DNA from: a virus
Direction: 5' to 3' (one strand)
Virus record (IMG/VR): IMGVR_UViG_3300045303_000037
Coordinates: 1-42,066 of that record
DNA length: 42,066 bases
This document shows, piece by piece, positions 2,589-41,494 of this stretch. Position numbers and translations under genes: made by a program. A model generated the notes under the pieces. It was not told where the DNA came from, did not search any database, and saw nothing but the letters and a program-made list of their open reading frames with translations. The stretch's first letter is position 1; every line of letters begins with the position of its first letter.

Positions 2589-2735
2589 TTACTCTGCTAA
2601 TGCTACAAGTCGTTGACTAGCTGATTTAGTCGCTTGGTCACATTTGTAACCAAACATACCAGCACCGATTAATATGCCTACTGCACATACTGCGAATATC
2701 ACATGGTTGATTATGTCTGTCATTCTGTCGCTCAT
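2589..2735 (-). CDS. 48-residue membrane microprotein
   Basis: The ATG at 2735 follows the shared leader GAGAGGACAACATC. There is one clear transmembrane segment (about residues 8-27, IINHVIFAVCAVGILIGAGM), then a short positively charged, soluble tail. It is the first gene after the very strong promoter/operator at 2766-2793, so it should be made early and in quantity. Function is unknown; superinfection exclusion or another membrane effect are possibilities only. Confidence 0.65.
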   Translation of the reverse strand: MSDRMTDIINHVIFAVCAVGILIGAGMFGYKCDQATKSASQRLVALAE

Positions 2736-2765
2736 GATGTTGTCCTCTCTTTAAGTTAAGTTGCT

Positions 2766-2793
2766 ATTATATCAACCGTAGTTGATGTGTCAA
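2766..2793 (-). promoter_or_regulatory. Consensus leftward promoter with nested operator O2
   Basis: Minus-strand -35 TTGACA (2793-2788), 16-base spacer, TGA-TATAAT -10 (2771-2766): both hexamers are perfect. The operator ATCAACCGTAGTTGAT (2771-2786) fills the spacer. This is the best promoter in the window and drives 2735-2374. Confidence 0.85.
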
Positions 2794-2845
2794 TGGTTAT
2801 TGTAGATATATTATTACTACATAGTGCGCATAATGTGGTGGATGT

Positions 2846-2862
2846 TATAATGTATCATTATA
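2846..2862. repeat. Inverted repeat TATAATG-TAT-CATTATA
   Basis: A perfect 7-bp inverted repeat with a 3-base centre lies between the O2 promoter and the resolvase stop codon. It may be a weak terminator for the resolvase or a recombinase half-site pair. There is no T-run. Confidence 0.4.
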
Positions 2863-2878
2863 TAGATCGATCGATAGC

Positions 2879-4189
<1,311 letters not shown>

Positions 4190-4792
4190 TCATACAGAGT
4201 TTATACACGGGTAATCCCTATGGTTATCCAGAGAAATTGTGGATATCCAACCCCACTGACTAGCCATAGCATCAGCGATACCTTGATACGTCAGGCTCCT
4301 AAGTTTCCATCGATCCTTACTGGGTGGAAGCATATGGCATCTAGGCTCACGACCTTCCACAACCTCTGTAGGTATTAATTTAGGCAACCCTTTCAGCCAG
4401 AGACATGTGGCTTTGGTTTCACCATGACCGAATTGCCAAGGCTGGATAATCTGGTCTGGCTTACGGAACTGGGTGGACATGATACCAATGGGATTCTCAA
4501 TGGCTATGCGAGGAATATTGGCACTCGCTAACTTCAGGAAGAACTCCACGGCCTCAGCTTGCTCGACTACCTTATCCTTAAACCATCGTGCACCACTAGA
4601 GGCTAAGTGGGTACATGGAGGATGGGCTATCATTAAGTCCCAATCCCAGTGTAGATACTTTAGGACGTCACTCTGGATGTGCTTACCTGGTATCTCAGTA
4701 GGCAGAAGGTCACATGACCATGCGTTATGACCACGGGCTTTAAAGGCTTCTCGGACGATTCCTGAGAATTCACATGCTATGAGGACGTTCAT
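4190..4792 (-). CDS. Phage DNA methylase (C5-cytosine-methyltransferase-like)
   Basis: 200 residues. The N-terminus MNVLIACEFSGIVREAFKAR carries the SAM-binding loop (CEFSG), followed by the acidic turn CDLLP (28-31 region). HPPCTHLASSGARWF at 57-71 is the PPC catalytic motif of cytosine C5 methylases. A conserved AIENPIGIM segment (motif VI, ENP) follows near residue 117. The protein is about half the usual length and has no separate target-recognition domain, as in many phage 'DNA methylase' genes. It may protect phage DNA from restriction. The gene stands alone, leftward, between the gene-free stretch and the rightward small-gene block. Confidence 0.8.
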   Translation of the reverse strand: MNVLIACEFSGIVREAFKARGHNAWSCDLLPTEIPGKHIQSDVLKYLHWDWDLMIAHPPCTHLASSGARWFKDKVVEQAEAVEFFLKLASANIPRIAIENPIGIMSTQFRKPDQIIQPWQFGHGETKATCLWLKGLPKLIPTEVVEGREPRCHMLPPSKDRWKLRSLTYQGIADAMASQWGWISTISLDNHRDYPCINSV

Positions 4793-4882
4793 TCGCTCTC
4801 CTAAGTAATTTACCCTAGAAGATTACACCATCTGGAGCATAACCTAGAAATGGTTTATCCTTGTGGCTGATCAGGAGGAATC

Positions 4883-5098
4883 ATGAGCCAATCCGATATT
4901 GAGCAATCCTTGAAAATTGTGACCTATATTGACAGATATGACAAAATATGGCGTGGATTTGAATTTTCCATCCTTGAGAAGGACAATTATCGATGGATTA
5001 TTATGATAGGTGATATTCCAAGCATTATGGAGCATGACAATTACTTAGAGGCATCTGCTTACGGGCATGGCTATATTGACGGAATTATTGGGAGATAG
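4883..5098 (+). CDS. Small protein, unknown; first gene of the 4883-6193 block
   Basis: 71 residues with a strong Shine-Dalgarno (CAGGAGGAATC). The sequence contains an aromatic-rich centre (KIWRGFEFSILEKDNYRW) and a GHGYIDGIIGR end. No family is recognised. The following gene starts 3 bases after the stop. No clear promoter was found in the 90 bases upstream. Confidence 0.6.
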   Translation: MSQSDIEQSLKIVTYIDRYDKIWRGFEFSILEKDNYRWIIMIGDIPSIMEHDNYLEASAYGHGYIDGIIGR

Positions 5099-5101
5099 GG
5101 C

Positions 5102-5287
5102 ATGATCATCAGTGAGAAGCAGATACAATACTTGATACATTATGCCAATGAATTCAGATGCGAGCTGTTGTGTTTTCAGGAGAAAGGTCTGCTTAGCGAG
5201 GAGGGCAACGCAAATCTTGAGCAAGTCTGTAGCTTGCTTGAAAGTATTTGCAACCAGCAATCCGATGAACTTAAGGTGGTGGAATGA
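5102..5287 (+). CDS. Small helical protein, unknown
   Basis: 61 residues, predicted almost fully helical (MIISEKQIQYLIHYANEF...LEQVCSLLESICNQQ). Its last codons overlap the start of the next gene by ATGA, which indicates translational coupling. No domain is recognised. Confidence 0.55.
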   Translation: MIISEKQIQYLIHYANEFRCELLCFQEKGLLSEEGNANLEQVCSLLESICNQQSDELKVVE

Positions 5288-5505
5288 TCGAATTTAAAGC
5301 AACAGACGAATGGTACGAAAATGCTGCTAAGATCGAAGAAATGGCAGAAATTGAGGAATGGCTTTCCAATCGACCCTCAGCCACAATGGATCCCTGTTAC
5401 GATGAAGTCCTTGTAAAGCGTTCCAGGCTTAGGGAATTGAAATCAAGATCTAGGAAGGAACGTTTGCCCTCTAAGATGATGGACTCTCAGCAGGTGGTGG
5501 AATGA
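5284..5505 (+). CDS. Small protein, paralogue of the 5993 gene
   Basis: 73 residues beginning MIEFKATDEWYENAAK. The gene at 5993 begins MIEFKATDEWYQRAAK, so the two are duplicates within one operon. Both continue with an acidic helix; this one ends in a basic stretch (RELKSRSRKERLPSK). It overlaps its neighbours by 4 bases on both sides. Function unknown. Confidence 0.6.
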   Translation: MIEFKATDEWYENAAKIEEMAEIEEWLSNRPSATMDPCYDEVLVKRSRLRELKSRSRKERLPSKMMDSQQVVE

Positions 5506-5819
5506 CCTGGACTCCAGGACGACAGAATTACTTCTATCATAAGCTCAAGATTTACTCATTCTGGAAGATTGATTGCTATCTAATCAGGTACTCAAAGGGC
5601 TTGGCTATTGGCTACCATGTCGATGATGTTCCAGGTCATAAGCACTATCGGCTTAACATTCAGCTAAGAGGCATTAACCGTCTATGCCTACTGGAAGACT
5701 TAAACCGCAAGATGGGCAGGTTCACATGGTTCCGGTCTGATAGAATGCACTCCTTTGGGATAACCTTAGAGCCTGGGTTGATATTATCATTTGGATTTGC
5801 GATTAAGGAGCGGGAATGA
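5502..5819 (+). CDS. 2OG-Fe(II)-oxygenase-fold-like phage protein
   Basis: 105 residues. YHVDDVPGHKHYRLNIQL (about 38-55) supplies His39 and Asp41 of an HxD motif, and MHSFGITL supplies a distal His83. The following strand ends LILSFGFA, as in small phage double-stranded beta-helix proteins of the 2-oxoglutarate/Fe(II) type. The arginine that normally binds 2-oxoglutarate near residue 92 is not seen, so it may bind metal without the usual co-substrate or be inactive. It overlaps the preceding gene by ATGA. Confidence 0.5.
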   Translation: MTWTPGRQNYFYHKLKIYSFWKIDCYLIRYSKGLAIGYHVDDVPGHKHYRLNIQLRGINRLCLLEDLNRKMGRFTWFRSDRMHSFGITLEPGLILSFGFAIKERE

Positions 5820-5877
5820 ACGACTTTACCAAGAAGAACTAGTTTTGATTGGATGCTGGTCAGGTAGCAGGTATCTA

Positions 5878-6000
5878 ATGGTCGGGATCGAACAAGCGGA
5901 AGATGAAGGCACGTTTGCGTTATCCCATAAGATACAAGACATGATCAACAATTACCAAGAACTCAAAATCCCAACTGTGGAGGATTATGACCATGATTGA
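5878..6000 (+). CDS. Short ORF with unclear or broken start
   Basis: About 40 residues from the ATG at 5878 (MVGIEQAEDEGTFALSHKIQ). The frame stays open upstream to a TTG at 5791. The only well-placed Shine-Dalgarno (AGGAG) precedes an ATG at 5817 in another frame that stops after 8 codons. A one- or two-base indel near 5830-5845 may have separated the original start from the rest. The 3' end reaches the next gene's start. Confidence 0.4.
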   Translation: MVGIEQAEDEGTFALSHKIQDMINNYQELKIPTVEDYDHD

Positions 6001-6193
6001 ATTCAAAGCTACAGATGAGTGGTACCAAAGGGCTGCTAAATCGGAATCTGAGATTGAACGCTCCGAAGCTTGGTTTAAGGAAAATTACTCTCAGAACCCC
6101 GAAGCCAAGCAATACGCAACCCAAGAAGACCTTGACCGCGTCACTGAAACTATCCTAGAGCGATATAAGGATGCATTAGAGAGGTTAGCGTAG
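5993..6193 (+). CDS. Small acidic helical protein, paralogue of the 5284 gene
   Basis: 66 residues from the ATG at 5993, which has GGAGG 9 bases upstream (the ATG at 5987 is too close). The N-terminus matches the 5284 gene over MIEFKATDEWY. The rest is an amphipathic helix (QEDLDRVTETILERYKDALE). Function unknown. Confidence 0.6.
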   Translation: MIEFKATDEWYQRAAKSESEIERSEAWFKENYSQNPEAKQYATQEDLDRVTETILERYKDALERLA

Positions 6194-6350
6194 CTATGCG
6201 GACGAACTTGCTATATAATCCTTCCCGCCGACAGTGTCTACCATTGTTTAATTCTTGAAGCAGCAATTGCTAGGGGCTGGAGGCACCATCTAGTCGACCT
6301 GCTTGCGATACCGCGTTCTAAATATCCTCATAGCCACCCAAATTAATTTA
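6194..6350 (+). other. Gap before operator O3; possible small transcript
   Basis: There is no ORF. A TATAAT at 6214-6219 has only a poor -35. The 10-bp palindrome AGCAATTGCT lies near 6261-6270, within a GC-richer run. This could be a leader or small RNA, but the support is weak. Confidence 0.25.
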
Positions 6351-6390
6351 ATCAACTCTAGTTTAACTCATGATTTAATTCAGATACAAT
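6351..6390 (+). promoter_or_regulatory. Rightward promoter with operator O3
   Basis: ATCAACTCTAGTTTAA (6351-6366) matches the operator family with a degenerate right half. A -10 TACAAT is at 6385-6390, with a -35-like TTAACT at 6363-6368 (16-base spacer) overlapping the operator. It probably drives 6420-7905. Confidence 0.6.
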
Positions 6391-6419
6391 GACCACAATG
6401 TAGCTAATTAAGGATGATT

Positions 6420-6731
6420 ATGCAGTTCTCGATGAAGGAATGGCTTCGATGTTACGATACAGTCCATGATTTAGGCAGTCAGCTTAAAGCATCTCAGCGA
6501 ACTTTTGACTACAACGGCAAGATAATCCCAGCAATTCATCCCCTTAAGAAACGTGAGCAGAAGGCAATAGAGTTCAATATCCGAGGTTTAATTCAACGCA
6601 GTTCCGCATATCTGAATCACTGTGGCATGCCGATGCCTAAGCCACTATGGCGTTATGACAAGGACGACCCTACGACCCATGCTTCTAGCCCTGAGTTTAA
6701 GTATCAGCACTTGGTGGGGTGGGGATGGTAG
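6420..6731 (+). CDS. Early protein, unknown
   Basis: 103 residues from the ATG at 6420; AAGG sits 6-7 bases upstream, whereas the ATG at 6414 is too close to it. The protein is basic and helical in the first half and has an aromatic, polar end (YQHLVGWGW). No domain is recognised. It overlaps the next start by 7 bases. Confidence 0.6.
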   Translation: MQFSMKEWLRCYDTVHDLGSQLKASQRTFDYNGKIIPAIHPLKKREQKAIEFNIRGLIQRSSAYLNHCGMPMPKPLWRYDKDDPTTHASSPEFKYQHLVGWGW

Positions 6732-7051
6732 GATTAGGCCATTGTATTAAATGCGACCATTATCATGGGAACTTTGGCTATGACTTGCTATGTCTAAAGT
6801 GTCATAATGATGAGCTTAAATTATCTAAGCCTGGAGTTCTCCTCACTACCGCTTCTGGAATGGCATCCATGACTCATGCTGCTCTATCTAAGCACCAATT
6901 TGAGCTAGCTAATGCAGCCCATCAGGTCACAGCTACAGGCGATAGGATTATGAGTAATATAGTTGGACATGTGGGAAACATACTCTTCGATGACGCTCCA
7001 AAGATTACAGGAAGGCGCGATAGGTTGTTACTGCTGGGAAGGCGTGTATGA
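6725..7051 (+). CDS. Early protein with N-terminal zinc ribbon
   Basis: 108 residues from the ATG at 6725 (GGTGGGG upstream). CIKC (about 7-10) and CLKC (about 23-26) form a treble-clef-like CxxC...CxxC site. The remainder is helical with many Ala and His (MTHAALSKHQFELANAAHQV), ending in a basic RRDRLLLLGRRV. It overlaps the next gene by ATGA. The role is unknown; such small zinc-ribbon proteins are common in phage early operons. Confidence 0.6.
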   Translation: MVGLGHCIKCDHYHGNFGYDLLCLKCHNDELKLSKPGVLLTTASGMASMTHAALSKHQFELANAAHQVTATGDRIMSNIVGHVGNILFDDAPKITGRRDRLLLLGRRV

Positions 7052-7242
7052 GCTATGTATGCTGCAATTGCGATTATAAAGTTATCTCTGATTTCAATAT
7101 GTGCCCACGTTGCCTGATGTATGGATCCTTTACGACTGAAGGTTTCGGGCAGGAATGTTTCCAGGTGAGAATTATCCATCCCGACGAGAAGTTACACTCA
7201 CACAGGCGCAACCAACTTTTACTACTAAGGAGATCCAAATGA
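7048..7242 (+). CDS. Rubredoxin-like zinc-ribbon microprotein
   Basis: 64 residues. CCNCDYKV (5-8) and CPRCLMYG (19-22) give a two-knuckle CxxC...CxxC zinc ribbon in the first third. The tail is basic (SHRRNQLLLLRRSK). It is coupled by ATGA overlaps to the genes before and after. The function is not known. Confidence 0.6.
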   Translation: MSYVCCNCDYKVISDFNMCPRCLMYGSFTTEGFGQECFQVRIIHPDEKLHSHRRNQLLLLRRSK

Positions 7243-7517
7243 GCTTAATGAAGTATAAAGATGTACTTGTTTTGGCCAAGGAGAAGATTAATGAAGTTAT
7301 GGCACCCCTTCGCGCTAGAGAGATGCGTAAGAAAGCCGAGCTAGAGTCCTGTAAGCTTGATTCTATGATTGCGACACATGAGCAGGATATTCAGGAATTA
7401 GCTTCCGAGTATCCGATTGATTTCGATAAGATGATTGATGCCCTTGACGAGCTAGAGCTAACTAAGCGCCGTAAAGAGCAATTCGAGCAGATTATTACTG
7501 AGATGTTTGGGGAATAA
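7239..7517 (+). CDS. Coiled-coil early protein
   Basis: 92 residues from the ATG at 7239 with AAGGAG upstream; a longer frame starts at 7155 but lies inside the preceding gene. It is almost entirely charged helix (EKINEVMAPLRAREMRKKAE...LDELELTKRRKEQFEQII), typical of a dimeric coiled coil. Its function is not recognised. The Acb2/Tad1-hairpin gene follows after 2 bases. Confidence 0.6.
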   Translation: MSLMKYKDVLVLAKEKINEVMAPLRAREMRKKAELESCKLDSMIATHEQDIQELASEYPIDFDKMIDALDELELTKRRKEQFEQIITEMFGE

Positions 7518-7519
7518 CT

Positions 7520-7732
7520 ATGAGTGACAGATTTCGCAAGGTTTACCTACCGTTAACCCAGGATAATCATAATCTAATCATGGCTATCAAGGAGGCTGCG
7601 GAACATTTAGAGCGCCAGTTACTTAGGGTTCAAGGTCGTGAGATGTCTCTTGCGATTACCAATCTTGAGCAATCAATTATGTGGGCTAGTAAGGCTGTAG
7701 CTCTTCATAATGAGCATGAGGCGAGTAAATGA
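7520..7732 (+). CDS. acb2: Acb2/Tad1 hairpin-domain protein (predicted immune-signal sponge)
   Basis: 70 residues. The C-terminal half GREMSLAITNLEQSIMWASK matches the hallmark of the Acb2/Tad1 hairpin family ('GRE.SLA.T.LE.A.MWA..A'). It is preceded by a helix AIKEAAEHLERQLLRV, as in the two-helix Acb2 fold. Known family members assemble into oligomers that bind cyclic di-/tri-nucleotides (anti-CBASS) or ADP-ribose-derived signals (anti-Thoeris) and so stop effector activation. It lies in the early rightward unit behind operator O3, consistent with a function needed soon after entry. Which ligand it binds cannot be told from sequence. Confidence 0.8.
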   Translation: MSDRFRKVYLPLTQDNHNLIMAIKEAAEHLERQLLRVQGREMSLAITNLEQSIMWASKAVALHNEHEASK

Positions 7733-7905
7733 AAGTTACTCTGCAATTTCCTACAGTGCTATTCCTTATCTTCCTAGTGCTGAAGCTTACCCACTATATT
7801 GACTGGTCATGGTGGTGGGTGACTGCACCCCTATGGCTGCCATTTGCCTTAGTGCCAGTTGCAGCGATTATCGCAGTAATCATCCGAGAAGTTAATAAGC
7901 CATAA
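7729..7905 (+). CDS. 58-residue membrane protein ('transmembrane Fragile-X-F'-like)
   Basis: The ATG overlaps the stop of the Acb2-like gene (ATGA), so the two are translationally coupled. There are two hydrophobic segments: about residues 8-20 (PTVLFLIFLVLKL) and 30-50 (TAPLWLPFALVPVAAIIAVI). The aromatic motif IDWSWWWVTAPLW between them is typical of a family of small phage membrane proteins carrying that odd annotation. The function is unknown; holin-like or exclusion roles are possible. Confidence 0.65.
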   Translation: MKVTLQFPTVLFLIFLVLKLTHYIDWSWWWVTAPLWLPFALVPVAAIIAVIIREVNKP

Positions 7906-7925
7906 TCTCTCTTAACCCCATCATC

Positions 7926-34585: not shown

Positions 34586-34633
34586 ATTATACCACTACAT
34601 GATCTATACATCAACTAGGGTTTATATTATAAT
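34586..34633. promoter_or_regulatory. Divergent promoters sharing operator O5
   Basis: Leftward: -35 TTGATG (34614-34609), 17 bases, perfect -10 TATAAT (34591-34586). Rightward: -35-like TATACA (34605-34610), 17 bases, perfect -10 TATAAT (34628-34633). The operator ATCAACTAGGGTTTAT (34610-34625) overlaps the leftward -35 and fills the rightward spacer, so one bound regulator would control both exo-RecT-SSB and the cro-to-helicase units. Confidence 0.8.
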
Positions 34634-34658: not shown

Positions 34659-34862
34659 ATGACCATTGAAGAAGTTGAGAACTGGTTTGGCAATCTGAAT
34701 AAAGTTTGCGTAAGACTAGACATAGCTCCACAGAATTCCACTAGATGGAAGCAACAGGGTTATATCCCTTGGAAGCAGCAGTTCAGGATAGCATTTTGCA
34801 CGGAAGGTGAGTTAATGCCGGATGAGAAAGATCCATATCCAGGTAGATGTTTCAATCAATAG
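34659..34862 (+). CDS. cro: Cro-like repressor
   Basis: 67 residues from the ATG at 34659 (GAGGAG upstream). MTIEEVENWFGNLNKVCVRL, then DIAPQNSTRWKQQGYIPWKQ, is a helix-turn-helix with recognition helix around NSTRWKQQ, followed by the FRIAFCTEGEL segment typical of P22-type Cro/YdaS proteins ('AYQIE..TGG.L'). It is the first gene after O5, which fits autoregulation. No partner CI repressor was found. It is the natural candidate to bind the five ATCAAC...GTTGAT sites. Confidence 0.8.
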   Translation: MTIEEVENWFGNLNKVCVRLDIAPQNSTRWKQQGYIPWKQQFRIAFCTEGELMPDEKDPYPGRCFNQ

Positions 34863-34883: not shown

Positions 34884-35741
34884 ATGCAACTAAAGCACAA
34901 GATTCAAGCGGGTATAGCTAGCGGTGTGATATTAATTGGATCTCTATATATAGCCTGTAATTTAACTCGCGTCCCTGCTGGCTATAGAGGTGTAATTGTG
35001 AACCTGTATGGCAGCGAAAAGGGTGTATCAGAAGAGTCGGCTGGAGTAGGGCGCTACTACTTAGGATGGAACAAGGAGATGTACCTCTTTCCCACATTCC
35101 TCCAAAATCGCTCATGGACTAAGGGTCAAGCCATTACGATGCAGACTTCAGAGGGTCTTACGATCACCACTGATGCAGGTATTACCTACCAGATTGAGCC
35201 TGACAACATCGTGAAGGTCTTCACTAAGTACCGCTTGGGCATAGATGAGATTACCGACACCTTCCTCCATAATATGGTTCGTGATGCTATGAATGAGGTT
35301 GCAAGCAGGATGACAGTTGACCAGATTTACGGGCTTAAGAAGGAAGAATTCATCAAAGCCGTTAACGCCATCGTAGTTCGAGAAGCTAAGGATAACGGCA
35401 TCAATGTCGACAAGATTTACCTCATAGGCAGCTTTGTACTTCCACCTTCGGTCATGAATTCCATTAACACTAAGATAGAGGCTTCCCAGAATGCGGTTAA
35501 AGTTGAGAATGAGATTGCTACGAGCAGAGCTGAAGCGCAGAAGACTATTGTGGACGCTCAAGCTGCTGCACAACGCATTATCATCAACGCAGAGTCGCAG
35601 GCTAAGGCTAATAAGATTCTTGCGGATAGTCTGACGCAGGAGTTCGTGTCCTATCAAGCTATCCTGAAGTGGGATGGTCGATTACCGACTACCAGTGCAG
35701 GTGGCGCAATACCCTTTATCAATTTAGGAGAACAGAAATGA
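34884..35741 (+). CDS. SPFH/prohibitin-domain membrane protein
   Basis: 285 residues. An N-terminal membrane anchor (about 10-27, AGIASGVILIGSLYIACN) is followed by an SPFH/Band-7 domain (VPAGYRGVIVNLYGSEKGVS; AITMQTSEGLTITTDAGITY; ITDTFLHNMVRDAMNEVASR) and a coiled coil with repeated AEAQKTIVDAQAAAQRIII. Such proteins form large membrane rings that organise domains or guard proteases such as FtsH. In a phage it may modulate host membrane proteolysis or envelope sensing. It is cro's immediate neighbour in the early unit. Confidence 0.85.
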   Translation: MQLKHKIQAGIASGVILIGSLYIACNLTRVPAGYRGVIVNLYGSEKGVSEESAGVGRYYLGWNKEMYLFPTFLQNRSWTKGQAITMQTSEGLTITTDAGITYQIEPDNIVKVFTKYRLGIDEITDTFLHNMVRDAMNEVASRMTVDQIYGLKKEEFIKAVNAIVVREAKDNGINVDKIYLIGSFVLPPSVMNSINTKIEASQNAVKVENEIATSRAEAQKTIVDAQAAAQRIIINAESQAKANKILADSLTQEFVSYQAILKWDGRLPTTSAGGAIPFINLGEQK

Positions 35742-35956
35742 GATGGATGCTCTTTAAGATTATATCGTTCGTATCGGTGTTCATATTCGTGCAGGGTGCA
35801 ATCCTACCTTGGGCAATATCGAATAATGTTATGCCATTATGGGCAGATATCATACTAATTACATTGATTCTCATGATGTGGTTGGCTGTGATTGACCGAC
35901 TTGCACACCATTTACTTAAGGTCTTAAGGAGGAATGATGAACTTTCGGCCGATTGA
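35738..35956 (+). CDS. Two-pass membrane protein
   Basis: 72 residues from the ATG at 35738, which overlaps the SPFH stop (ATGA); GGAGAA upstream. Hydrophobic segments at about residues 6-25 (LFKIISFVSVFIFVQGAILP) and 31-50 (VMPLWADIILITLILMMWLA). The coupling suggests it works with the SPFH protein in the membrane, as NfeD-like partners do, although no NfeD sequence is seen. Confidence 0.6.
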   Translation: MRWMLFKIISFVSVFIFVQGAILPWAISNNVMPLWADIILITLILMMWLAVIDRLAHHLLKVLRRNDELSAD

Positions 35957-36407
35957 TAGCATGGGTGAGGATGAAATCAGGGCTGATCTTGCTCATATTG
36001 AGAAGGAATTAGGCTTAGAAGTGTACCGTCCGTCTATGCACTGGAGAGTTAAATATTCATTAGCAGACCGCGCTAGAGACTTAAGTGCAGCTTTACGTAA
36101 TATGGTAAAGCGCAGACCCATAGGCATACCAGGTAGTAATTCTCCCAATAATGAACACTTAGCTAAGGATGGAATCATGCATATCGAATTTGAAACTGAA
36201 GTAGCCGGAAAATTAACATTCGCGATGGTAGCTGACGGTCAATTATTTGCAACAACCCATGGCTTATATCAGAAATCTTCTGACACCTTACACGAGGCAT
36301 GGCATATATGTAATCCCCAAGGTGACCCAGTAGGTCAGACTGAAAGCTTTGACCATAGTGAAGAGATTGGGAGAATCCTCCCCCCAATTAGAAGGATTGC
36401 GTTCTGA
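35937..36407 (+). CDS. Early protein, unknown
   Basis: 156 residues; AGGAGG is best spaced for the ATG at 35937. A helical, basic first half (LAHIEKELGLEVYRPSMHWR, RDLSAALRNMVKRRPIGIPG) and a beta-type second half (MHIEFETEVAGKLTFAMVAD) might be two domains. No family is recognised. Overlaps both neighbours. Confidence 0.55.
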   Translation: MNFRPIDSMGEDEIRADLAHIEKELGLEVYRPSMHWRVKYSLADRARDLSAALRNMVKRRPIGIPGSNSPNNEHLAKDGIMHIEFETEVAGKLTFAMVADGQLFATTHGLYQKSSDTLHEAWHICNPQGDPVGQTESFDHSEEIGRILPPIRRIAF

Positions 36408-36595
36408 TGAGATCTATAGCTGAGATAGACCAATACCTCACCGCTAATGTCGTAGATGCGAATGAAACATTTCACCTTGAGATTAGCACCGATGAGAATA
36501 AAGATTATCGGAGGGGATTCTACGCCGGGGTTCTTTTCGCCTTCCTCCATGCCAAAGCTAATATAGGGAATATTGAAGATGCTGCTCCTGAATAA
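36407..36595 (+). CDS. Small acidic early protein, unknown
   Basis: 62 residues, coupled to the preceding stop. Its central segment DYRRGFYAGVLFAFLHAKAN is amphipathic. It overlaps the start of the PRPP-synthetase-like gene by 17 bases, placing it in the same translational chain as the NAD genes. Confidence 0.5.
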   Translation: MRSIAEIDQYLTANVVDANETFHLEISTDENKDYRRGFYAGVLFAFLHAKANIGNIEDAAPE

Positions 36596-37415
36596 CCGAC
36601 CCATAGACCATTTCATCTTCCCAGGTGGCGAGATTCAAGTCAGATTGCCTGAGAAGATTGACTCTGAGCGTGTAATCCTGACTTGGAAGCCCATTAACGC
36701 CAGTGAGATTATGTTCCTACAGCTCGTGGTGAATGCCCTTAATCACGCTGGAATTACAGATATTGACCTTGATGTGCTGTATCTGCCATATGCCAGGCAG
36801 GATAGAGTTTGTCAACCAGGTCAGGCATTGAGCCTAGAGGTGATATGTGAGGTGCTTAATCAATTAGAGGTGAAGTTCATGCGCTTCTGGGATGTGCATA
36901 ATCCTGATGTAATGTATGAGCACATATCAGATTTCCGTATGAGCAATATCTCAGACGAAAGCATATTCAAGCGCTATAAGATCTTAGATAACTTTGACCT
37001 TGATAACACCATTATATGCGCTCCAGATAAGGGTGCTAGAGGCAAAGCAGAGGACATTGCTTCATTACTTGAGGTAGGATTTGCAATACATTTCGACAAG
37101 GTCAGATGTGCGGTCAATGGTGCAATTACTGGCATTAAGCCTAATGAGCACAATAGTGATATTGCTGGATGGGAAGTCCTAGTCGTGGATGATATCTGCG
37201 ATGGTGGCAGAACATTTATCGAGGTAGCCAAGGAACTTCGCCTTACCACCGGTGAGAATCTGTACCTCTACGTCACCCACGGCATCTTCAGTAAAGGCTT
37301 AGACGAGCTGCTAGAGTACTACACCCATATCTACTGCCATCACGTTCTGCACGACGATAAGTTCCAATCCAATGACCGCTTAACCATATTGAGGGAATTT
37401 CCGCATGTTCCATAA
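36579..37415 (+). CDS. adps: PRPP-synthetase-like enzyme, candidate ADPR-pyrophosphate synthetase (Adps)
   Basis: 278 residues from the ATG at 36579. The fold and site residues of ribose-phosphate pyrophosphokinase are present: YARQDR (71-76), DVHNP (105-109, catalytic His107), APDKGARGKAEDI (148-160) and the PRPP loop VVDDICDGGRTF (202-213). It is shorter than typical PRS (about 315). It overlaps the NAMPT-like gene by 11 bases. PRS plus NAMPT could simply make NMN. In the NARP1 pathway a PRS homologue instead pyrophosphorylates ADP-ribose so that a NAMPT homologue can attach nicotinamide, rebuilding NAD+ that host immunity destroyed. The absence of an NMN adenylyltransferase favours NARP1, but substrate choice is not proven. 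Confidence 0.8.
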   Translation: MLLLNNRPIDHFIFPGGEIQVRLPEKIDSERVILTWKPINASEIMFLQLVVNALNHAGITDIDLDVLYLPYARQDRVCQPGQALSLEVICEVLNQLEVKFMRFWDVHNPDVMYEHISDFRMSNISDESIFKRYKILDNFDLDNTIICAPDKGARGKAEDIASLLEVGFAIHFDKVRCAVNGAITGIKPNEHNSDIAGWEVLVVDDICDGGRTFIEVAKELRLTTGENLYLYVTHGIFSKGLDELLEYYTHIYCHHVLHDDKFQSNDRLTILREFPHVP

Positions 37416-38904
37416 TCCGCTATTTGCTATCGATTTCTACAAGGTTGACCATCGGAGACAATATCCTGCTGGCACAACAGAGATTTACAGTAATTTTACC
37501 CCGCGATATGTGAAGGAATGCCATAGCTTGCTACCGGATTTCGATAATCAGGTGGTGGTCTTCGGGATTCAAAGCTTTCTGAAGCTCCTTATAGACTACT
37601 GGCAGATAGGATTCTTCGATTGGGATAAGCGTACTGTGATCTCAATCTACAAAGGGTTAATAGAGAAGGCTTTGGGCATTAAGGACTTCGATTGCAGCCA
37701 CTTAGAAGCGCTCCATGACCTTGGTTATCTGCCCATTAGAATCAAAGCTATTGAGGAAGGATCACGTGTCCCAATCGGTGTTCCAGTCCTAACGATAGCC
37801 AATACGCACCCTGAGTTCTTCTGGCTCACTAATTACCTGGAAACCATTATCTCAGCTAGTCTCTGGAAGCCAATGACTTCAGCTACTATTGCGTTCGAGT
37901 TCAAGCGACTCTTGACCAAGTATGCTATCAAGACTGGTGCAGATTTAGACTTCGTAGACTATCAGGCGCATGATTTTAGCTTTAGGGGAATGTCTGGTAT
38001 AGAAGACGCGAGCCTTTCTGGTGCTGCCCATCTTACGAGCTTCAAGGGTACTGACTGCGTAAGTGCGATAGAGCTATTGTATGATCAATACTACGGCATG
38101 AGTGAGGCGGTTGTAGGTGCTAGCGTTCCAGCTACTGAGCACTCAGTTATGACCTGCGGTGGCTCGGAAGGTGAATTCGACACCATCAAGCGCTTAATCA
38201 CTGAGGTTTACCCAGAGGGAATTGTATCAATTGTGTGCGATTCGTATGACTTCTGGAGAACATTGACGGAGTATTTACCCAAGCTTAAGGATGAAATCAA
38301 TGCCAGAGAAGGTAAAGTTGTTGTTCGCCCTGATAGTGGTTATCCCGTTGATATTATTTGCGGGGATGACAGTGGGATGCGTGTTCTTCCAGCTTCACGA
38401 GGCGCTCTCGAATGCCTATGGGACGAATTCGGAGGCACAATCAATGCAGCCGGATACAAGGTACTTAACCCCAAAGTCGGACTCATCTACGGCGATGCAA
38501 TCACCGTGGAGCGAGCTAGTCTAATCTTGGAGAAGATGGAGCAAATGGGGTTCTGCTCTAGCAACATCATATTCGGGGTAGGTAGCTACACATATCAGTA
38601 CGTCACACGCGATACTTTCGGCTTCGCAATGAAGGCTACCAGTGCAGTGATTAATGGTGAGCGCGTGGCTATCTGGAAAGACCCAAAGACTGCGGATGGG
38701 AGTAAGAAGTCTGCTAAAGGGTTGCTGTGTGTCGATTGGGATTTAGAATCTGAGAGATTTAAACTCTATGATAATGTGGATGAAGCTACGGAATTGGCAG
38801 GTATGTTAGAAACCGTATTCGTCGATGGTCAGCTCTGCAATCTTACTAACCTCGGCAAGATACGCGAGAATTTAGATCTTGAATTACAACAACTTATGGA
38901 GTAG
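37405..38904 (+). CDS. namat: NAMPT-like enzyme, candidate nicotinamide ADPR transferase (Namat)
   Basis: 499 residues, close to human NAMPT (491). Catalytic landmarks align: HDFSFRGMSGIEDASLSGAA (189-208), FKGTDCVSA with Asp217, VPATEHSV with catalytic His246, SDSYDFW-like CDSYDFW (278-284), and VVRPDSG (307-313). These residues bind nicotinamide and the phosphoribosyl pyrophosphate in NAMPT. In NARP1 the homologue uses ADPR-PP in place of PRPP and gives NAD+ directly. It is translationally coupled to the gene before and under the Cro-regulated early promoter. Confidence 0.85.
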   Translation: MFHNPLFAIDFYKVDHRRQYPAGTTEIYSNFTPRYVKECHSLLPDFDNQVVVFGIQSFLKLLIDYWQIGFFDWDKRTVISIYKGLIEKALGIKDFDCSHLEALHDLGYLPIRIKAIEEGSRVPIGVPVLTIANTHPEFFWLTNYLETIISASLWKPMTSATIAFEFKRLLTKYAIKTGADLDFVDYQAHDFSFRGMSGIEDASLSGAAHLTSFKGTDCVSAIELLYDQYYGMSEAVVGASVPATEHSVMTCGGSEGEFDTIKRLITEVYPEGIVSIVCDSYDFWRTLTEYLPKLKDEINAREGKVVVRPDSGYPVDIICGDDSGMRVLPASRGALECLWDEFGGTINAAGYKVLNPKVGLIYGDAITVERASLILEKMEQMGFCSSNIIFGVGSYTYQYVTRDTFGFAMKATSAVINGERVAIWKDPKTADGSKKSAKGLLCVDWDLESERFKLYDNVDEATELAGMLETVFVDGQLCNLTNLGKIRENLDLELQQLME

Positions 38905-39323: not shown

Positions 39324-40118
39324 ATGTCTCAGGCTAAATTAAATACATCTTTAGTAAATAAACGCATCAACCCACGTTACATAGTTATTGATGAAGATAT
39401 CCACGCAGCATTAGACTTATACACATTGTCCTTATACATGGCTTTCCGATACGAAGCGGACTATACATCTGAGGATTCCATGATTCGACGTTCTGCTAAA
39501 TTCCTTAGTGAGAAAGCACATATATCTACTCGCCAGTTCTTTAAATCTTTGAACCTTTTAGAAGATTTTGGCTTAATCCAGAGAGATCCATCTAGCCCTG
39601 CAAACTCCCTATCTATATACCATGTAGCGCAGAAGTTGCATTATTTTACTACACAGTGCTTAGGGGTGCATGATATGCATAGGGGTGTGCACATGGTGCA
39701 TACGGATCATTATTCTTTACCAATAATTATTAATACTAATAGCGAATCTTGCGATTCTCCAGTAGCAGCAATTAAGGATAAACCCCAAAAGCAGTCATCC
39801 GGGGAATTGCTTCACCTCCTCATCGATTGCTATCGGCGTGAGTTCCCTAATAATCCGCAGCCACATGCTAGGGTAATCTCCACAAGCCTACAGAAGACCT
39901 TGCAAAGCTTGATTAAACGATGGCCAGAGCTAGACCCGAATGGCAATCCATTGACACCAGAGCTATTTGGCCGATACCTGTATTTGCTTCGCACTACTGC
40001 GCCTAAGTTCTCTCTTGGTGAATACGAGACGCAATCGGGTAATCGCAAGAAGAACGGACTTGAAACCTTTGCTAGATGGAACACAGTGGTTAAATTCATG
40101 GAGAATCAATACTCATGA
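39324..40118 (+). CDS. Replication initiator (lambda O-like, HTH)
   Basis: 264 residues with AGGAGAATTATACC upstream. The N-terminal ~100 residues form a winged-helix type domain (IVIDEDIHAALDLYTLSLYM; STRQFFKSLNLLEDFGLIQR). A His-rich linker (GVHDMHRGVHMVHTDHY, about 114-130) follows, then a C-terminal region (LIDCYRREFPNNPQPHARVI ... WNTVVKFMENQ) similar to helicase-loading ends. It is coupled to the DnaB-like gene by ATGA, the lambda O-P type layout. Repeats inside the gene (39661-39701) could be origin iterons. Confidence 0.75.
   Translation: MSQAKLNTSLVNKRINPRYIVIDEDIHAALDLYTLSLYMAFRYEADYTSEDSMIRRSAKFLSEKAHISTRQFFKSLNLLEDFGLIQRDPSSPANSLSIYHVAQKLHYFTTQCLGVHDMHRGVHMVHTDHYSLPIIINTNSESCDSPVAAIKDKPQKQSSGELLHLLIDCYRREFPNNPQPHARVISTSLQKTLQSLIKRWPELDPNGNPLTPELFGRYLYLLRTTAPKFSLGEYETQSGNRKKNGLETFARWNTVVKFMENQYS
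39661..39701. repeat. Short repeats inside the O-like gene, candidate origin iterons
   Basis: AGGGGTG occurs at 39662-39668 and 39681-39687; TGCAT occurs at 39667, 39676 and 39697; palindromes ATGCAT and TGTGCACA lie between. Lambda and relatives keep origin iterons within the O gene at an equivalent place. Confidence 0.35.
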
Positions 40119-41494
40119 ATACACCTAAATTCTGCTATGAACTTGAATCACGCGTATTGGAAACGCTGATGGATCTTGAATCCCCCACTGAGTATCGCGT
40201 ACAGCAAGCTATGCTGAAGCTAAAACCTAAATGCTTCTACAAGCCGGAGAATGTCGAGATATTCGGGTTAATACGCAAAACCTTTGATGAATCGCGAACA
40301 TTTGGCTTTGTAGATATCCTGATTGAGTGCTCCGTGAATACTGATCTACACGAGCATATGGCAAAGATAATGTCTGATTTTCGAGAATACCATGCTTCCA
40401 ATGTCCACTTTGAATCTGATATCGACAAGCTACTTACTCTTGCCAATCTTCGGAAGCAACTTAGTCTGAATTCTGCGATTATTAATGCTGTGGATGACTG
40501 TACAGACCCGATAGAAGCCCAGACTATCTTGGCTGATGGCTTACGCGATATGGCAGCTTTAACGCTAATTGAATCGAAGCATGGTATTAGTAACGACGAG
40601 ATTGCAGAGGATTATCTAGATGGTAAGATTGCTGAAGATATGAAGCTCCCAACTACTTCCGATCAGCTCAATAATCTTCTAGCAGGTGGTATCATGCCGA
40701 AAAGCCTTATCATCGTTGCAGCTGGCGCTAGTGTTGGTAAAACTGGATTTTCAATCTGGCTACTTGATGCAATAGCACGCAATCAACCTAATCATGAGTC
40801 ATTGTTCTTCTCAATCGAGATGGAATATAAACACATTTGGATGCGTCATGTCGGGGTTTGCGCTGGCAAAACCTTTGACAAGCTAACTGAAGAGGAACGC
40901 ATTCGAGCAGTGCAGAAGTCCATGGGAGTCCCAATGAAGATTTATGATGCTGCAATCTGTAGGCAGGTAGCAGATATTGACTTCATCCTAAATACCGCGC
41001 GATTACGAGCTTTACAACGGCCTATATCAGTAGTCGTGATTGATTATCTTGGCTTAGTGCAGAGCAATGGAAAATTCGATAGCAATTACCTCAAGCATGA
41101 ATACGTTACCTCTCGACTTGCTGAACTCGCGATACAGCTTAATTGCACAGTAATTGCACTATCGCAGATTAACAGAGGTGCAGCTAACCGAAGCAATGAT
41201 GACCGTTGTCCATGGCCTCATGATGCAGCCGATAGCTCAGGAGGTCACAGAAGTTCTAGTCTATGGCTTGGTGTAGATAGGCCAGAATTATATCAAGACG
41301 AGCCATGCTATCGAGGGCAATTCGTAGTTAAAGCTCGTAAGAATCGCTTTGGCAACACGTTCGACTGGCTACTGAATTTCAAAGATGGTGCATTTGGAGA
41401 AGTTCCGGCTGGGTGGTTCAAGCAATCCACAAGTAAGACTCAGAATCGCGAGCAAGCCCTTTTTTCACCCCATAGTGATGATTTACATAGGTAG
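40115..41494 (+). CDS. dnaB: DnaB-type replicative helicase
   Basis: 459 residues. The N-terminal helical DnaB domain occupies about 1-130. RecA-like core: Walker A GASVGKTG (204-211), FFSIEME (231-237), VVVIDYLGLVQ (306-316), VIALSQINRG (346-355) and the arginine-finger region VKARKNRFG. Hexameric, unwinds DNA 5'-to-3' at the fork. The gene is 3' of the O-like initiator, with a hairpin terminator after it. Confidence 0.95.
   Translation: MNTPKFCYELESRVLETLMDLESPTEYRVQQAMLKLKPKCFYKPENVEIFGLIRKTFDESRTFGFVDILIECSVNTDLHEHMAKIMSDFREYHASNVHFESDIDKLLTLANLRKQLSLNSAIINAVDDCTDPIEAQTILADGLRDMAALTLIESKHGISNDEIAEDYLDGKIAEDMKLPTTSDQLNNLLAGGIMPKSLIIVAAGASVGKTGFSIWLLDAIARNQPNHESLFFSIEMEYKHIWMRHVGVCAGKTFDKLTEEERIRAVQKSMGVPMKIYDAAICRQVADIDFILNTARLRALQRPISVVVIDYLGLVQSNGKFDSNYLKHEYVTSRLAELAIQLNCTVIALSQINRGAANRSNDDRCPWPHDAADSSGGHRSSSLWLGVDRPELYQDEPCYRGQFVVKARKNRFGNTFDWLLNFKDGAFGEVPAGWFKQSTSKTQNREQALFSPHSDDLHR

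Follow-up and report, generated by a model that had tools for sequence, protein, structure and literature searches.

A putative, optional NARP1 gene pair at an early site in an uncultured phage lineage

The window analysed here is a whole viral record of 42,066 nt (IMG/VR IMGVR_UViG_3300045303_000037, positions 1 to 42,066), which carries two adjacent genes putatively encoding an ADP-ribose pyrophosphate synthetase (Adps) and a nicotinamide ADP-ribose transferase (Namat) (Table 1). The Adps-like ORF starts with an ATG at 36579, shortly after an in-frame TTG at 36573, stops at 37415 and overlaps the Namat-like ORF by exactly 11 nt (37405-37415). The initial annotation had described this overlapping pair of a PRPP-synthetase (PRS) and a NAMPT homologue, and Pfam domains agree with it (Pribosyltran_N and Pribosyltran in the former, NAMPT_N and NAPRTase in the latter, E to 1e-43), as do the catalytic residues, which are in place and conserved (His107, Asp217, His246 and R308-P-D-S-G312). 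The synthetase is indeed short when set against the 315 aa of Escherichia coli Prs, yet its 278 aa are the usual size for Adps, since the proteins of SPbetaL1 and DyoEdafos have 272 and 286 aa, respectively. Compared with the nearest relative (L002), dN/dS is 0.10 for each of the two genes, which are therefore real and under strong purifying selection.

Table 1. Features of the early region surrounding the gene pair, with positions in the window.
Feature	Position	Strand	Basis
Predicted leftward promoter TTGATG-17-TATAAT (extended -10), towards exo-RecT-SSB	34586..34614	-	scan
Predicted rightward promoter TATACA-17-TATAAT	34605..34633	+	scan; -10 region conserved in relatives (alignment)
Cro-like HTH regulator, 67 aa, first gene of rightward early operon	34659..34862	+	weak P22_Cro match; PHROG 409; start conserved in relatives
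Band-7/SPFH protein, optional operon gene	34884..35741	+	PF01145, 1.3e-25; PHROG 200; only in some relatives
157-aa protein without known family, optional, fast-evolving	35934..36407	+	no Pfam/PHROG family; dN/dS 0.38
62-aa ORF, overlapping Adps start by 17 nt	36407..36595	+	
Putative Adps-like gene (PRPP-synthetase family), 278 aa	36579..37415	+	tree, ribose-5'-phosphate loop, predicted fold, dN/dS
Adps ribose-5'-phosphate loop VDDICDGGRTF, residues 203-213	37185..37217	+	alignment
Putative Namat-like gene (NAMPT family), 499 aa	37405..38904	+	PDB matches, signature, NAD+ contacts
Namat clamp loop RYVKECHSLLPDFDNQVV, residues 34-51; third residue Lys37, fourth Glu38	37504..37557	+	
Namat selectivity-clamp helix motif GSYTYQYVTRD, residues 393-403	38581..38613	+	signature defined in PMC12774641
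Replication initiation protein, downstream of pair	39324..40118	+	PHROG 8102, E 0.00023 (weak); syntenic in relatives
DnaB-like replicative helicase, downstream of pair	40115..41494	+	PF03796; PHROG 19

The gene order recurs in relatives, with SSB, RecT and YqaJ exonuclease genes leftward and, rightward, the Cro-like gene, an optional stretch of Band-7 and small ORFs, Adps, Namat, rep and dnaB. The operon had been called 'Cro-controlled' and placed behind a site 'O5'. A Cro-like gene is present, albeit below the P22_Cro threshold (23.5 bits vs 30.2), and divergent promoters are predicted by a scan that overall did no better than shuffles, but a search for repeated dyads that could act as operators found none. 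Early timing of the pair is plausible from its position, which is downstream of a conserved -10 box and of the Cro-like gene and ahead of rep-dnaB. Neither an integrase (PF00589) nor an HTH_3 repressor was found in the window. The Band-7/SPFH gene is strongly conserved (dN/dS 0.04) though optional in the lineage, and a candidate accessory anti-defence gene is the one for the 157-aa protein ahead of the pair, which only some relatives have and whose structure was modelled with low confidence (mean pLDDT 54).

A search of the lineage anchored on the exonuclease, rather than on the pair itself, recovered both genes in nine loci and neither in five, single genes being seen only at contig ends. The cro-to-rep interval measures 0.6-1.3 kb when empty vs 3.3-5.7 kb when filled (Fisher p 0.0005, uncorrected for relatedness). 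This joint presence or absence and the shift in interval size are the behaviour of a two-gene accessory cassette, which occupies a fixed site between the Cro-like and replication genes. Searching phage records with the nucleotide sequence of the early region gave no match, and the portal protein and exonuclease found only distant matches in the same records; the lineage is therefore absent from that collection. Hints as to the host conflict, one relative being from a Desulfosporosinus bin (L020) and another a prophage-like record (L230, IMGVR_UViG_2660238140_000001), while no related exonuclease was found in 36 genomes of the order of a Coxiellaceae MAG. The relative in the prophage-like record (2614-7914) lacks the pair and has bacterial-looking genes on its flanks (a sensor kinase, a metabolic enzyme), which means that some members of the lineage may be prophages. 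A record listed as 'Acinetobacter phage MD-2021a' (CAKLQF020000015.1, L016) resembles a bacterial chromosome, with iron transport, AraC and metabolic genes, which makes its phage listing doubtful.

The best PDB matches of the Namat-like protein are the SPbetaL1 Namat structures 9w5x/9w5w (E ~3e-156), with mammalian NAMPT at 5e-76. In a maximum-likelihood tree, it falls in the Namat-like clade, from which Nampt (human, Xanthomonas and KVP40-like) is split off at 100/100, and within a 40-row clade (86/85) that includes ICP1, DyoEdafos and a Felixounavirus and leaves SPbetaL1 outside. The Felixounavirus reference used throughout (L180) is not itself the assayed phage; Bas63 is a member of this genus. 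The clamp helix is a perfect match to the signature defined for Namat (PMC12774641) and is the same as in the ICP1 protein, the human, Xanthomonas and KVP40-like Nampt having GGALLQ or GGGLLQ at this site; its conservation suggests selection for adenine recognition. An alignment at the substrate pocket, which had been called for, revealed that 18 of the 20 NAD+-contact residues of SPbetaL1 Namat are identical in the window protein and that the other two are conservatively replaced (R40 by K37, F392 by Y395), in both cases by the states found in ICP1 and Felixounavirus. According to the published NARP1 criterion, the clamp loop supplies an adenine-stacking residue, which is either Arg or the residue after Lys/Tyr. 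In the window, Lys37 is followed by the non-aromatic Glu38, whereas Felixounavirus and ICP1 have an aromatic residue after Lys, and across Lys-type viral clamp loops an aromatic residue or His follows in 23 of 46.

For the Adps-like protein, a maximum-likelihood tree rooted with bacterial housekeeping and archaeal PRPP synthetases as outgroup places the window with all four NARP1 references (SPbetaL1, DyoEdafos, ICP1 and a Felixounavirus), PRS being split off at 100/99. The initial annotation had named grouping with ordinary PRS and NAMPT as the outcome that would speak against it; in the two trees, however, fully supported branches put both proteins with Adps and Namat, and on this ground and that of the contact residues an ordinary PRS and NAMPT was rejected. 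The pocket of the synthetase also has the form of the Adps clade. In PRPP synthetases, the loop aligned with residues 203-213 holds the 5'-phosphate of ribose-5-phosphate. Thr225 of E. coli Prs, invariant in nine sampled PRPP synthetases, is replaced by Gly209 in the window and Leu229 by Phe213, the Adps clade having mostly D-G-G-x-T-F; the loop differs from that of Felixounavirus in its first residue only and from that of DyoEdafos in one residue. We infer that this change may create the space needed for the AMP moiety of ADP-ribose. The structure of Adps is unresolved according to PMC12774641. The predicted fold of the window protein is of the PRS type (pLDDT 77.8), its best PDB matches are all PRPP synthetases, and, unlike SPbetaL1 and DyoEdafos Adps, it scores above the general PRPP-synthetase cut-off (120.5 vs 113 bits).

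Several variants of these genes were encountered elsewhere. In IMGVR_UViG_3300044648_000136 (L234, 3337-5793), the Namat homologue is a single ORF of 818 aa in which the catalytic motif is split as RPD|SG by an insert of ~310 aa that begins with Cys and ends in ..VAVCGN before Ser, which are hallmarks of inteins; Pfam at E 0.1 found no intein domain, and when interrupted Namat genes were scanned against Rfam, no intron family was recovered. PHROG 12872 (547 aa) matches the window synthetase with its first half and the transferase with its second, suggesting natural Adps-Namat fusions. In Rheinheimera phage Barba31A, a macro-domain gene (L190, 1184-1687) lies directly upstream of the Adps-Namat pair and is a possible supplier of free ADP-ribose.

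Profile searches of the window found neither an NMN adenylyltransferase (NMNAT; PF01467), as had been noted from the outset, nor a Nudix domain (PF00293). Since the genes at the two ends of the window adjoin each other in L020, the record probably represents a circularly permuted genome that is nearly complete, which makes these absences meaningful. The nearest sequences outside the phage lineage are bacterial pairs from Acinetobacter, Geminocystis and Micavibrio (Namat 57-58%, Adps 36-39% identity), the phage references SPbetaL1, DyoEdafos, ICP1 and Felixounavirus being less close (46-52% and 27-33%). Proteins with the Namat signature are common on bacterial chromosomes of several phyla (L020-L099), mostly in an operon with Adps-like and NMNAT-Nudix genes. 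In the bacterial loci sampled, an NMNAT-Nudix gene is nearby in 68 of 80 and an Adps-like gene in 71; in viral stretches, the corresponding counts are 0 and 76 of 93. The clamp motif, or a variant close to it, occurs in all 80 bacterial relatives sampled, and the nearest bacterial pairs also have the loop signature of the synthetase. The motif alone is therefore no proof of NAD+ as the product, and its use as sole proof of NARP1 was dropped; more generally, because the nearest bacterial pairs share these signatures and are mostly NMNAT-Nudix-linked, signature and tree alone cannot exclude a route from PRPP to NMN.

Such a route, NARP2-like in nature, would have the synthetase convert ribose-5-phosphate to PRPP and the transferase make NMN, with an NMN adenylyltransferase of the host finishing the work. 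The gene neighbourhood of the bacterial homologues fits NMN as their product, cyanobacterial NadV/NadM, which may or may not belong to this clade, are reported to be an NMPRT and an NMNAT (PMC6610520), and purified Namat retains the conversion of PRPP to NMN in vitro (PMC12774641). This is nevertheless unlikely for the window, where the transferase has conserved the adenine-clamp residues that Nampt lacks and the synthetase a loop unlike that of PRPP synthetases, and NAD+ synthesis has been verified for phage pairs that lack an NMNAT gene; moreover, as hosts have Prs, an extra PRPP synthetase would presumably be of little use to a phage. NARP2 itself, in which NAMPT and NMNAT make NAD+ via NMN, was rejected on account of the missing NMNAT and the position of the transferase outside the Nampt clade.

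A bifunctional or ancestral-type pair, with useful rates on ADP-ribose and on ribose-5-phosphate alike, would suit the placement among NMNAT-linked bacterial relatives, the non-aromatic clamp-loop residue and the synthetase score above the PRS cut-off, but is very improbable given the selection for adenine recognition that the clamp helix suggests. That the genes are decayed, or serve unrelated metabolism and play no part in anti-defence, is scarcely credible in view of their low dN/dS, the integrity of every catalytic residue and the conserved position across relatives. A broader and rather doubtful idea places the window lineage together with its NMNAT-linked bacterial relatives in an Adps/Namat branch that has a different adenine clamp (Lys37-Glu38) and perhaps dual use of ADP-ribose and ribose-5-phosphate. 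If true, the NARP1 signature would be ancestral, inherited from a NAD+ salvage operon that is widespread in bacteria and that phages trimmed by dropping NMNAT.

Phylogenetic bracketing and the missing NMNAT thus make the pair very probably a NARP1 module. The NARP1-like identity originally suggested is supported at the level of sequence by both trees, the Namat signature, the NAD+-contact residues and the lack of NMNAT; substrate choice, an anti-defence effect and early expression are inferred. In the proposed mechanism, host defences with TIR, SIR2 or SEFIR effectors convert NAD+ to ADP-ribose and nicotinamide, Adps would transfer pyrophosphate from ATP onto ADP-ribose to yield ADPR-PP, and Namat would join ADPR-PP with nicotinamide to give NAD+ directly, making an NMN adenylyltransferase dispensable. 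Rebuilding NAD+ in this way would let the phage survive bacterial defences that destroy it. NARP1 would thereby be extended to unstudied, uncultured P22-portal phages of ~41-42 kb, in which the two genes form a cassette that is optional but fixed in its early position. The published Namat signature being common to many bacterial pairs, mostly beside an NMNAT-Nudix gene, annotation of NARP1 by signature needs gene neighbourhood or an assay, and whether the pathway arose as a bacterial salvage operon or as a phage shortcut becomes directly testable.

Among known systems, NARP1 of the Bacillus phage SPbetaL1 (PDB 9W5W/9W5X; PMC12774641) likewise combines the two families in one operon without NMNAT, in the order seen here, and shares the clamp-helix motif and most NAD+ contacts with the window. 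However, its Namat and Adps are only 52% and 27% identical to those of the window, its clamp loop is shorter and contains Arg40, and its synthetase loop reads VDDLSSFGGTF instead of VDDICDGGRTF. NARP1 of the mycobacteriophage DyoEdafos (PMC13232231) and NrsAB of the Vibrio phage ICP1, for which the evidence consists of in vivo NAD+ levels and homology rather than purified enzymes (PMC11559045), belong to the same clades as the window in both trees. The Adps loop of DyoEdafos (VDDICDGGGTF) deviates by a single residue and the clamp helix of ICP1 by none, although overall identity is 47-49% for Namat and 31-33% for Adps, and the DyoEdafos operon has an inserted RyDEP gene that has no counterpart in the window. 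The bacterial Adps-like/Namat-like/NadM-Nudix operons (Acinetobacter, Geminocystis, Micavibrio, Bacteroidota) have the clamp and loop signatures and, in the first three, the highest identity to the window pair, but they are chromosomal and include the NMNAT-Nudix gene, of which the window has neither domain. Finally, canonical NAMPT/NadV (human, Xanthomonas and the KVP40-like Vibrio phage R11Z) and E. coli Prs share fold and catalytic core with the window proteins, but identity drops to 34% and 28%, they form separate, fully supported clades, and they have GGGLLQ in Nampt for GSYTYQ and DTGGTL in Prs for DGGRTF.
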